43,703 nt of DNA from Lachnospiraceae bacterium (GTDB taxonomy: Bacteria; Bacillota; Clostridia; Lachnospirales; Lachnospiraceae), in the NCBI GenBank assembly GCA_022788085.1, contig JALEWA010000139.1, positions 1-43,703 of the forward strand, given 5' to 3'. How positions within the stretch are numbered: position 1 is the first letter of the stretch; every line of letters begins with the position of its first letter. A model generated the notes under the pieces. It had not been told where the DNA came from, did not search any database, and saw only the letters and a list, made by a program, of their open reading frames with translations. Made by a program: the position numbers and the translations under genes. Of this stretch, positions 5,028-43,703 are shown piece after piece.

Positions 5028-5096
5028 AGTATGCTGTAACTGTTCAGCAGATATTCGTATCTACTACGTAGATTTACTGAACAGTTACCACATACT
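5028..5096. repeat. Large inverted repeat next to hairpin array 1
   Basis: Arms 5028-5047 and 5077-5096 pair over 20 bp with two mismatches; the inner 12 bp (GTAACTGTTCAG / CTGAACAGTTAC) are perfect. The 29-nt interior can form either AGATA-TTCG-TATCT or ATCTAC-TAC-GTAGAT, which overlap and exclude each other. A related inverted repeat is found beside array 2 (36800-36931). Confidence 0.8.
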
Positions 5097-5144
5097 AATT
5101 ATAGAAAGTAGATATACCTTGTAAAATATCCCACAAAAATGGAA

Positions 5145-5333
5145 ATTACGTGCCTAATTATTAAAAAGGCTACATTCGCACGTAATATACTAAGTAACTT
5201 AATCCCACAAGCATGAATTTACGTGTCTAGCTATTAAAAAGACTGCATTCGCACGTAATATACCAGGTATCTCTATTCCACAAACATGAAATTTACGTGC
5301 CTAGCTATTAAAAAGACTACATTCGCACGTAAA
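5145..5333. repeat. Tandem hairpin array 1, three 42-nt palindromic units at 73-74 bp spacing
   Basis: Units at 5145-5186, 5218-5259 and 5292-5333. Each starts (A/T)TTACGTG, ends GCACGTAA(T/A) and is exactly 42 nt long, separated by 31-32 nt linkers that share CCACAA(G/A)CATGAA. Nine terminal base pairs form a stem. Unit 1 ends A...T and unit 3 ends T...A, so the outermost pair is swapped but kept. The same core length, terminal sequence and period occur in array 2 at 36995-37328. The rest of the gene-free region 4810-5485 shows nothing else that I can name. Confidence 0.9.
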
Positions 5334-5385
5334 AAGGTATATTAGTCACTTTACACCCCTTTGAGCAGTTACAATATGCTTACAT

Positions 5386-36645: not shown

Positions 36646-36742
36646 AATATTGTACTTTTTCCTTATTCCGACTAATTTACTCGCATCTTTATAAATTTTA
36701 ACATATATTCTCACATTTTACACTTTATTTTATTAAATTCTA

Positions 36743-36767
36743 AACAAAAAATAAGTATTGCTTATTT
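36743..36767 (-). terminator. Terminator-like hairpin downstream of array 2
   Basis: On the minus strand a 7-bp stem (AAATAAG / CTTATTT, 5-nt loop) is followed by TTTTG and TTT. It is AT-only apart from two G-C pairs, so weak, but it is placed 33 nt past the large inverted repeat, as would suit the end of a transcript covering array 2. Confidence 0.45.
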
Positions 36768-36799
36768 AGTAAACTTGTATGTTCCTTTATATTTATTAC

Positions 36800-36931
36800 G
36801 TATCTATTCAGTACCTTCATAGATACGATGCAAAAATGCATATTAAATTGCTTCGTAATGGCATTTTTGCCTTTTGCATCATTTTCTTACGCATAAAACA
36901 GCAAGTGTTTTATGCTGTACTGAACAGATAC
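36800..36931. repeat. Large inverted repeat next to hairpin array 2
   Basis: Arms GTATCTATTCAGTAC (36800-36814) and GTACTGAACAGATAC (36917-36931) pair over 15 bp with one mismatch. Inside are GATGCAAAA...TTTTGCATC (36827-36835 / 36872-36880), an inner AAAAATGC/GCATTTTT pair, and a perfect 10-bp hairpin GCATAAAACA-GCAAG-TGTTTTATGC (36891-36915). The left arm can alternatively pair with ATAGATAC at 36819-36826. It shares CTGAACAG with the repeat at 5028-5096. Confidence 0.8.
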
Positions 36932-36994
36932 CTATTTTCTATATAAATTGCATTTCAACAAGTGGATATTTCCGTTACTTAAGAACGTAATGAT

Positions 36995-37328
36995 ATTACA
37001 TGCCTAATCATGAGATACGTCAATCCGGCACGTAATTGGAGTTTCAAGAAATCATAAAAGCGGGAGAATTACGTGCCTAATCATAAGAAATGTCAATCTG
37101 GCACGTAATTGGAGTTTCAAGTAGTCATGAAAACAGGAGAATTACGTGCTTAATCATAAGAAGCATCAATCCGGCACGTAATTAAAGTTTCAAGAAGTCA
37201 TGAAAATGGGAGAATTACGTGCCTAATCATAAGAAATGTCAATCCGGCACGTAATTGGAGTTTCAAGTAGTCATGAAAACGGGAGAATTACGTGCCTAAT
37301 CATGTGATACATCAATCTGGCACGTAAT
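36995..37328. repeat. Tandem hairpin array 2, five 42-nt palindromic units at exactly 73 bp spacing
   Basis: Units at 36995, 37068, 37141, 37214 and 37287, each 42 nt. The consensus starts ATTACGTGCCTAATCAT and ends CAATCCGGCACGTAAT, giving a 10-bp terminal stem. The 31-nt linkers are nearly identical (TGGAGTTTCAAGTAGTCATG, then AAAACGGGAGA), so this is a tandem repeat rather than a CRISPR array. The first unit has a mutated arm (ATTACATGCC). It matches array 1 in core length, ends and period. Confidence 0.95.
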
Positions 37329-37398
37329 TAGAGTTTCAAGAATAATAAAAAAAAATAAAAACAGAGTCGCGTGCATTAACACATCAACCCTGTCCTGG

Positions 37399-37636
37399 TC
37401 TATATCATGAACACAGCTCATGATTACCCATACTCGCCAAATACTTCGTGCTTGGCGAGTTGTCTATATTATATCACAAGCATAGCTTGTGATCGTCATT
37501 CGCCGCTCGCGATGAACATACTACGCCTGCTCCCGCTCACTAACGCTCATTATATCACGTCGACTGGCGTCTCCGTGTTTTTTTCGCCTTATGTCGATGT
37601 CCGCAAGCGCACATCGCCGCAAGGCTCATTATATCA
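37399..37636 (-). repeat. Hairpin-rich spacer with repeated TGATATAAT motif
   Basis: On the minus strand TGATATAAT occurs at 37628-37636, 37549-37557 and 37468-37476, with a partial copy at 37399-37407: roughly 70-80 bp apart, the first two followed by GAGC. Between them lie hairpins ATCACAAGC/GCTTGTGAT (37473-37493), ACTCGCCAA/TTGGCGAGT (37432-37460), ATCATGA/TCATGAT (37404-37424) and CGATGT/ACATCG (37595-37616). The DNA is more GC-rich than its surroundings. No reading frame is convincing. Confidence 0.6.
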
Positions 37637-37662
37637 TGATCCGCAGCGAAACTGTTACCATA

Positions 37663-38700
37663 TTATCGATTCATCTCTAACTGAGGTTCCGTAGACTGAT
37701 GATTCTTAATAATAGTATCAATTTCCTTCAGATTTGATGATGGTAAGTCACCCGGAATCGTATTCTTAACGGCTGCTGTCGCATTACCATATTCCATAGC
37801 TTTCTGGCAGTCCATATTATGTGCAAGCAATCCATAAAGAGCACCTGAAATATAAGCATCACCGCTACCGATTCTATCAACAACATCAATGTTCTCATAT
37901 GCCGGTTCCTGAACAAAACAATCATTCATGGCATCATAGATGCAGGAACCAAAAGAGTGTACTTTAGGAGAATGAACAATACGCTGTGTTGCTGCAACAA
38001 CACTAATCGGATAATCCTTCGTAAAGCTCTTCATCATTTCCTGTACCGTACCTTCCTTTTTAAAGGTCAGTCTTGCAGTATCCTCAGAGCAGAAGAATAC
38101 ATCTACATAAGGAAGAATCGTTTCGATACAAGCCTTTGCCTCTTCACCGGTCCAGAGATTTCCTCTAAAGTTAACATCAAAAGAAATCAAGGTACCATTC
38201 TCCTTAAAGCGTTTGATCATTTCAATGGCAGTTTCCCTTGTTTTCTGTCCCAATGCAAGGGTAATGCCTGTTGTGTGGAAACACCTTGCTGCCCGGAACA
38301 TTTCCTCCGGGAAATCATCAATATTTATATCTGCAAAGGCAGTATTCTTTCTATCATAGATAACATTCGGCTTTCTTGGATGTGCGCCATATTCATAGTA
38401 ATAAATGCCAAGTCTGGAATCCTTGGTCTTATCATATACCAGATAGTCGTCGCTGACACCACAGAAACGTACCCTGTTCTGGATATAATTGCCTAAATCA
38501 TTTGCAGGTACCTTGGAAATAATACCTGTTCTAAGTCCTAACAGGGAAACACCTGATACTACATTTAATTCAGCGCCGCCAGCCTGCTTCTGGAAGGCAT
38601 CCCCTCTTGTCAAACGTTCATTTACAGGTGGTGACAGACGAAGCAATATTTCGCCAAGTGCCAATAAATCAAATTCTCTTCTTTTCATCATGTTGTTCAT
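37663..38700 (-). CDS. kdgK: 2-keto-3-deoxygluconate kinase, PfkB family
   Basis: A 345-residue ribokinase/PfkB-type sugar kinase. The N-terminal substrate segment is LLALGEILLRLSPPVNERL, with AGGAELNVVSGVSLLG. The PfkB signature 2, with its anion hole and catalytic Asp, is DRIGSGDAYISGALYGLL near residue 280. HTTGITLALG and SFDVNFRGNLW match KDG kinases. It would phosphorylate 2-keto-3-deoxygluconate from pectin uronates, complementing the galactan operon, but no uxa, uxu or aldolase genes are present. The start is either the ATG at 38700 or one three codons later; GAGGAG is very close to the first. A possible operator is at 38807-38823. Other PfkB sugar specificities remain possible. Confidence 0.85.
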   Translation of the reverse strand: MNNMMKRREFDLLALGEILLRLSPPVNERLTRGDAFQKQAGGAELNVVSGVSLLGLRTGIISKVPANDLGNYIQNRVRFCGVSDDYLVYDKTKDSRLGIYYYEYGAHPRKPNVIYDRKNTAFADINIDDFPEEMFRAARCFHTTGITLALGQKTRETAIEMIKRFKENGTLISFDVNFRGNLWTGEEAKACIETILPYVDVFFCSEDTARLTFKKEGTVQEMMKSFTKDYPISVVAATQRIVHSPKVHSFGSCIYDAMNDCFVQEPAYENIDVVDRIGSGDAYISGALYGLLAHNMDCQKAMEYGNATAAVKNTIPGDLPSSNLKEIDTIIKNHQSTEPQLEMNR

Positions 38701-43303: not shown

Positions 43304-43703
43304 TTACCTGTTATTTCCGACAGTTCTGCCTGTTGTTGTACCATTGGTTGTTCCATTTCCGGTACCATTTGTTGTTCCGTTCGTCACACCATTTGTTGTT
43401 CCATTCGTTGCACCATTTGTTGCTCCATTGGTCACACCGTTCGTTGTTCCATTCGCTGTGCTATTATTCTCCCCTGCTGTTCCTGTCTGGTTCTGATCAG
43501 AAACATGCTGTAAACGCTGATATAAGCTTTGATAGAAGTTCTCAATATTATCATTGATCTGAAAGTTATTCTCCTGCAGCAAGGTAACGTATTCCTGGAC
43601 AATCTGACCTAATCTGCTGTTGGGATTCGCCTCGGCAAACTGCTGATAATAAGGCAGCGCTTCACGATCAACTACATCTGATGTCTCACCCTGATAGTAA
43701 TGT
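43304..43703 (-). CDS. C-terminal part of a protein ending in Thr-Asn-Gly repeats (runs off the right edge)
   Basis: The frame is open from the right edge and ends at 43304, giving 132 residues. The first 80 are helical, with repeat-like segments (REALPYYQQFAEANPNSRLGQ in part, and DNIENFYQSLYQRLQHVSD) that could belong to a TPR-like or coiled protein. The last 50 residues are a low-complexity tail built of TNG followed by T, V or A (about a dozen TNG/TGNG units). The codons for the repeats vary, so this is not a recent pure DNA expansion, although the DNA repeats at 12-bp intervals. The role is unknown; the start lies outside the window. Confidence 0.75.
   Translation of the reverse strand, partial: HYYQGETSDVVDREALPYYQQFAEANPNSRLGQIVQEYVTLLQENNFQINDNIENFYQSLYQRLQHVSDQNQTGTAGENNSTANGTTNGVTNGATNGATNGTTNGVTNGTTNGTGNGTTNGTTTGRTVGNNR

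Follow-up and report, generated by a model that had tools for sequence, protein, structure and literature searches.

The stretch of DNA analyzed here, hereafter the window, comprises 43,703 nucleotides of a Lachnospiraceae contig and carries, in the gap between a PfkB-like gene and a HAD gene, a tandem array of 73-bp units, each built around an inverted pair of half-sites (array 2; positions 36995..37342, delineated by TRF and by inspection of the units and half-sites). Because the array is palindromic, no strand was assigned to it or to its cores. TRF describes it with a period of 73, 4.8 copies, and 86% matches (36995-37342). The five 42-nt palindromic cores that the first-pass annotation had placed exactly 73 bp apart are present with that spacing (36995-37328), at 36995..37036, where the left half-site has one substitution (TTACATG), 37068..37109, 37141..37182, 37214..37255, and 37287..37328. 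The cores read TTACGTGY-N24-RCACGTAA or close to that, the half-sites TTACGTG...CACGTAA being inverted. With up to one mismatch, ATTACGTGCC has 14 matches in the window compared with 1.57 expected, a count reached in 0/100 shuffles, and mismatches amount to 2/100 over the 20 half-site positions of array 2 versus 21/234 elsewhere (one-sided Fisher p 0.013). No protein frame accounts for the array, as had been noted: zero ORFs of at least 80 aa overlap 36995-37342. The interval that separates array 2 from the PfkB-like gene (37360-37660) is filled by several short, unrelated hairpins together with a TTATATCA-type repeat; as a whole, it looks like accreted intergenic debris. Elsewhere in the window, at 43340-43456, a tandem 12/24/48-bp repeat lies within an ORF and encodes a TNGTTNG-rich C-terminus.

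The repeat architecture was also said to recur at 5.0-5.3 kb, and TRF places it at 5127..5332 (array 1; no strand). Array 1 consists of three cores with the half-sites of array 2, starting at 5146, 5179, 5219, 5252, 5293, and 5326, with a 73/74-bp period and a different interior. It is the cargo of a miniature element, a MITE, at 5036..5372 (no strand), with ends GTAACTGTTCAG / CAGTTAC and flanks AGTATGCT / AATATGCT that match at 7/8 positions; terminal inverted repeats and a target duplication, the features by which MITEs are recognized, are thus both found in the carrier of array 1. Two further copies of this 337-bp element, 90% and 91% identical, are located on C177 (L028 2463-2799) and C223 (L030 3419-3755), with a 7/8 flank match in L030 also and none in L028. 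The three copies of the MITE with its array cargo mean that a site array can be carried along by an element of another kind. The 132-nt nested inverted repeat previously described as the companion of array 2 does exist, at 36800..36931 (no strand), but is a second, separate MITE, a neighbor outside the array system with copies of its own on C70 (93%; L036 3211-3342) and C115 (91%; L039 2911-3039), contigs on which no TTACGTGC cores were found. The reading of the array and the inverted repeat as a single transcription unit was rejected for this reason. The ends of the 132-bp element (GTATCTATTCAGTAC) are related to those of the array-1 MITE, and a 55-bp piece of it is found directly downstream of the nuclease gene described below (L027 4139-4193). 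Its L036 copy is flanked by a perfect 8-bp duplication, GTAGTAGG, which we take to suggest an IS66-like parent; no target duplication was found for the window copy (36800-36931). In a nonsystematic inspection of boundaries, neither MITE ends nor target duplications were apparent at array 2 or at arrays linked to a nuclease.

Pattern search and inspection identified 21 TTACGTG cores in the genome. They form six arrays distributed over five contigs, the window accounting for two of these arrays and C173, C177, C199, and C223 for the others. The interiors vary among these arrays, being purine-rich on C173 and C199, and the half-sites and period are constant. Directly downstream of the C173 array is a gene (C173:8224-9084) that corresponds to a 287-aa ORF (276 aa from the second start), with no Pfam or NCBIfam match of the product at the cut-offs and with a C-terminus matching PADLOC PDC-S68 and related PD-DEXK profiles. 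Two homologs are encoded in the same genome, at C71:37890-38672 and on C86, where the gene is truncated by the contig end. Downstream of the C71 gene is a TAGTTGG array with a period of ~53 bp, and TAGTTGG cores number 14 on 7 contigs, compared with 1 for the reversed-pattern control.

These proteins belong to a family of PD-(D/E)XK-like nucleases of ~265 aa that is found in the window's family and in Treponema. When 24 members were compared with Pfam and NCBIfam, no family matched at the cut-offs; the Pfam search gave hits to six families, always in a single member and at E >= 0.0014, with no transposase among them. In contrast, the C-terminus of PADLOC PDC-S68 was matched by 24/24 members and HEAT_CxxC_PD-DEXK by 12/24. 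A sequence search of the PDB with the family yielded no match at E < 0.01. The C-terminal domain (residues 146-262) is conserved, with a mean pairwise identity of 0.44, and the N-terminal half is variable (0.24). E159, D190, and E205 (L064 numbering), of which D190 lies in a mostly PDF motif, are conserved in 86/86 aligned proteins along with nine other residues and constitute an invariant candidate active site. Both these residues and the profile matches agree with the acidic active site that PD-(D/E)XK nucleases have in their restriction-endonuclease fold. In the tree, all 23 Treponema sequences form one group (support 0.73), to which the C173 protein is weakly supported as sister (0.61).

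Profile A1, made from four array-linked proteins and used for the family searches, matched 40/120 genomes of the window's family, 5/38 of its genus, 5/80 of a Treponema family, and 3/199 of a phylum sample (the own genome, one more of the same family, and one C-terminal match). Of ten array-bearing genomes, eight were matched, one of them by the C-terminal part only, within a longer ORF (G259); the two genomes left, G255 and G256, both have TTACGTG arrays. A pattern-based search of viral_contigs identified no relative of the nuclease, and no TTACGTG array was found there either. Plasmid searches gave two C-terminal matches, both in AAA ATPases, and phage searches two matches, one partial and the other of 91% coverage but located on an unverified fragment. 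A nearly full-length relative with 32% identity is encoded at 3093-3833 of L264 (MT839528.1), an unverified 4.2-kb "Bacteriophage sp." record in which no array was called. A viral origin was considered and rejected, viral_contigs containing neither array nor nuclease relative and the plasmid and phage matches being weak or fragmentary. Broken copies of the nuclease gene (L075 1270-2045; C237, C244, and C367 of G253; C149 of G272) suggest fast turnover.

Of 250 genomes examined in the family, 1 contains the TTACGTG array, namely its own (0/249 others). When GTDB was scanned with the three-part pattern used for the family, 21 contigs were returned, 13 of them from Treponema/Treponemataceae, 3 from Lachnospiraceae, 1 from an uncultured bacterium, and 4 from other bacteria (Psittacicella, Desulfovibrio twice, and Porphyromonas). 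In the 15 contigs inspected, which exclude these last four as well as L065 and L070, the common half-site recurs in steps of ~73 bp, and the interiors are often unrelated. The nuclease gene adjoins the array in six contigs of the scan (L058, L062, L064, L066, L074, and L075).

The association extends beyond this half-site. Arrays were called without reference to any motif, as at least three inverted pairs of a 7-mer (one mismatch allowed) at a fixed distance, with at least two equal steps of 40-95 bp. Protein search alone yielded 130 loci, and an array was called within 1.5 kb in 76 of them. The 130 loci represent 128 genes, L171 being the gene of L062 and L208 and L217 two pieces of one gene, all without arrays; in L172 and L191, only the C-terminus is matched, within a longer ORF. 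By set, arrays were called in 43/68 loci, 23/30 (6 repeats of earlier loci), and 6/16 (2 repeats), and, with caller parameters unchanged, in 17/31 further loci, three of these being from a previously used genome. In the control, 0/78 chunks from 17 nuclease-free genomes contained an array, three of 20 stretches having been too short for use. Other chunks of nuclease-bearing genomes contained arrays in 5/68 cases, and all five, judged by eye, carry the half-site of a nuclease array in their own genome, that is, they are solo arrays. No array was called in 54/130 protein-found loci, some of which end at contig ends. Where the gene was full-length and 600 bp or more of upstream sequence was available, 25/77 loci had no called array. 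The periods and positions were taken from a set of 106 loci (104 genes), 65 of which have arrays: upstream of the gene only in 49, downstream only in 8, and on both sides in 8. The largest called array, in L142 (G103:C28), has 25 units with CCCCAAG half-sites and a 52-bp period and flanks the nuclease gene on either side. The pairing of a nuclease with private arrays recurs in two phyla, among bacteria of the gut and rumen.

The array periods are quantized. Across the 65 loci, they cluster at 51-53, 61-64, 71-75, 81-86, and 91-94 bp (17, 17, 21, 6, and 4 loci, respectively), which corresponds to whole helical turns of 10.5 bp, from five to nine in number (nominal p ~3e-21, Rayleigh R 0.85), and 17 later held-out loci behave likewise (R 0.94, p ~3e-7), although the loci are related by descent, so that these p-values are too small. 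Against a uniform null, the value observed for the first 60 loci was reached in 0/2000 trials. Deviating steps within arrays also shift by whole turns (23 steps, R 0.78), and the tree shows repeated switches of period class that land on helical multiples. Half-site pairs recurring every 5-9 helical turns would present the sites on one side of the helix.

The consensus half-site varies from locus to locus and is shared by close relatives. Half-site agreement, out of 12 positions, is 8.0 for pairs of proteins with at least 60% identity (12 pairs), 5.3 at 50-60% (38 pairs), and 4.15-4.39 at lower identity; a Mantel test of half-site against protein similarity over all pairs was not significant (218/2000 permutations reach the observed value). 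Nearest protein neighbors have a common helical-turn class in 35/59 cases versus 14 +- 3.7 expected (0/2000). The partial correlation with the half-site is 0.28 for the N-terminal half and 0.09 for the C-terminal half, over 132 nonindependent pairs, which is only suggestive of half-site specificity residing in the variable N-terminal half. GGCTAAG cores number 40 on 9 contigs of G073 and 31 on 10 contigs of G089, the two sampled genomes with nucleases linked to GCTAAGA arrays, compared with 0 (36 genomes) or 1 (G034 and G103) in the other 38 nuclease-bearing genomes, like the reversed-pattern control. In G073, each of seven nuclease matches has its own called half-site next to it, all seven half-sites being different and the one at L126 weak. 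For the two half-sites examined by pattern, solo arrays are located at other places in genomes encoding the cognate nuclease.

Arrays away from a nuclease gene are intergenic, 25/26 overlapping no ORF of at least 100 aa. Beyond the half-sites, few solo arrays outside MITEs are alike: L261 and L263 (78% over 225 bp), two neighbors in L253 (88% over 208 bp), and L244 and L249 (68% over 199 bp). The loci around the HAD gene of array 2 in congeners contain an array or TTACGTG in 0/14 cases. The PfkB-HAD neighborhood is kept in congeners, with the kinase within the examined stretch in six of the 14, and the gap between the two genes, measured between alignment ends, is 75-190 bp in four of these six versus 1.3 kb in the window. 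The gaps in the other two are 0.7 kb (L222) and 1.4 kb (L224), so that no clean empty site can be assigned, and neither such a site nor a target duplication was found for array 2.

We also examined the array as a possible RNA. Rfam has no family at gathering score anywhere in the window. The proposed minus-strand extended -10, TGATATAAT, is present at 37468-37476, but a scan of 36700-37700, by rules that exclude A/T-only stems such as 36743-36767, returned no terminator-like site where a terminator-like hairpin and a 720-nt minus-strand transcript had been postulated. The same interval has 3 promoter-like sites compared with 3.9 +- 2.3 in shuffles; with both scans at the shuffle level, the transcript derives no support from them. 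Both strands fold better than 20 shuffles (z -11.4 for the minus and -6.8 for the plus strand), as inverted repeats alone would produce. Single cores fold weakly to moderately, and single-strand stems of 7-12 bp could still form from the half-sites. Selection for a hairpin predicts more pairing at variable positions within units than between them. Over 54 loci and 329 units, leaving out loci with self-palindromic half-sites, within-unit pairing was not above permutation (inner 911 vs. 938 +- 13; outer 525 vs. 540 +- 11), and only 5/164 half-site substitutions are compensated, revealing no hairpin-like covariation.

The association of gene and array, the helical quantization, the half-site and period common to close relatives, the intergenic solo arrays, the invariant candidate active site, and the lack of any sign of covariation are direct observations. 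Array 2 probably represents duplex DNA recognition sites of the chromosomal PD-(D/E)XK-like nuclease encoded at C173:8224-9084. Each nuclease clade would have its own 7-9-bp half-site, arranged in inverted pairs and read by the variable N-terminal half, and the nuclease would bind the array directly, assembling cooperatively along it. An upstream array may also regulate the nuclease gene, resulting in autoregulation, and nicking or cutting at arrays could lead to tandem amplification and to occasional copying to new places. Nuclease and arrays would then make up a selfish chromosomal element, similar to REP/RAYT but assembled from unrelated parts. We see even chances that they represent an undescribed class of elements, in which a one-gene PD-(D/E)XK-like nuclease recognizes, maintains, and spreads private helically phased arrays with an easily changed recognition code (dozens of half-sites, 5-9 turns) and several orthogonal pairs can occupy one genome.

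The main rival is a host-beneficial role of the cognate pair, a possibility that we hold tentatively and consider the less likely one: the nuclease would serve in defense or chromosome maintenance, and the arrays would be a self-marker or a titration or loading platform restraining it until foreign or damaged DNA appears. Such a role would fit the match of the C-terminal domain to the C-terminus of the PADLOC candidate PDC-S68 in all 24 members tested, although that match spans ~115 residues of ~1,220-aa models. Also in its favor are the coexistence of nucleases with different half-sites in one genome (7 matches in G073 and 7 in G207), the patchy distribution (5/38 congeners; 40/120 in the family), the persistence of half-sites beyond that of interiors, and the array upstream of the nuclease gene in 49/65 loci. 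However, the genes beside L027 and L058, the two loci inspected, look like housekeeping genes, viral_contigs yielded no relative in the pattern-based search, the plasmid and phage matches are partial or unverified, and nuclease copies are broken (L075; pieces in G253), as is seen in selfish genes.

It is rather improbable that a different host protein binds the arrays and that the nuclease gene merely inserts beside them. Binding by the nuclease is itself deduced, and 8/65 arrays lie only downstream of its gene; yet half-site and period class follow the nuclease, as the turn classes of nearest neighbors indicate, and in G073 each of several half-sites lies beside a different nuclease. Still harder to sustain is the view of array 2 as a common MITE or cluster of repeats that lacks a cognate protein and is mobilized by some unrelated transposase. 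Array 1 truly is the cargo of a three-copy MITE, and array 2 adjoins another, but half-site and period remain constant in arrays with unrelated interiors, the half-site matches a nuclease in its own genome, and array 2 has no MITE ends in sight. A structured noncoding RNA or transcribed hairpin array, the first-pass reading, is the least credible and was rejected: the minus strand does fold better than shuffles, but there is no Rfam match or within-unit covariation, promoter and terminator scans stay at the shuffle level, and the spacing follows the helical repeat of duplex DNA.

Recognition of the arrays by the nuclease, our preferred reading, can be set against known systems. Unlike in CRISPR, where unique spacers separate the repeats, the interiors within an array are copies of each other that have diverged. 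Plasmid iterons, ParB sites, and Tn7 ends are helically phased binding arrays, with many sites on one helix face and cooperative assembly. The present arrays differ from these in being dispersed over the chromosome, in having one nuclease gene, and in the half-site changing from clade to clade. PDC-S68 (~1,200-1,220 aa) and HEAT_CxxC_PD-DEXK (288 aa) align with the nuclease family only over their C-terminal ~115 residues, and, as far as the match shows, these models include neither the N-terminal half of the nuclease nor arrays; the name PDC-S68 was not found in the open-licence PMC literature.

The closest comparison is with REP palindromes and RAYT, here drawn from PMC2817692, in which REPs are described as having a GT(A/G)G head, with stem mutations complementary to each other. 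The earlier label of a structured RNA or REP-like element comes close in its second half: like REP/BIME-RAYT, the arrays are dispersed intergenic palindromic sites with regular spacing and alternating orientation, extragenic in 25/26 cases away from the nuclease; one nuclease-type gene stands beside cognate sites, with gene and sites coevolving; and sites abound where the cognate gene is present (GGCTAAG 40 + 31 vs. 0 or 1), with G255 and G256 as exceptions. Its first half, the structured RNA, is unsupported. Unlike RAYT, a Y1/HUH tyrosine transposase of the IS200/IS605 type, the nuclease is PD-(D/E)XK-like and matches no transposase family. In place of the 20-40-bp REP hairpin with a GTAG head, the arrays have 7-9-bp half-sites, such as TTACGTG, GCCTACA, and CCAACTA, without that head and with free interiors; complementary mutations are absent (5/164 compensated, no excess pairing). 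Whereas the RAYT gene lies between two inverted REPs, the array is usually on one side of the nuclease gene (both sides in 8/65), and its period, unlike in REP/RAYT, is fixed in helical turns. Because the tests of enzyme, head motif, pairing, and flanking fail, the system is not a member of REP/RAYT, which is nonetheless the nearest precedent for its mode of working. No description of the nuclease-array system was found in the open-licence PMC literature, including PMC2817692 and PMC3733652.

If this interpretation is correct, a class of repeats and nucleases unrelated to REP/RAYT and CRISPR would be present in 40/120 genomes of the family and in 5/80 genomes of a Treponema family, and a type of repeat that has gone unannotated would be explained. 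Dozens of natural protein-site pairs would become available for learning a DNA-recognition code, and the vague question of a structured RNA would turn into a direct one of binding and cutting.
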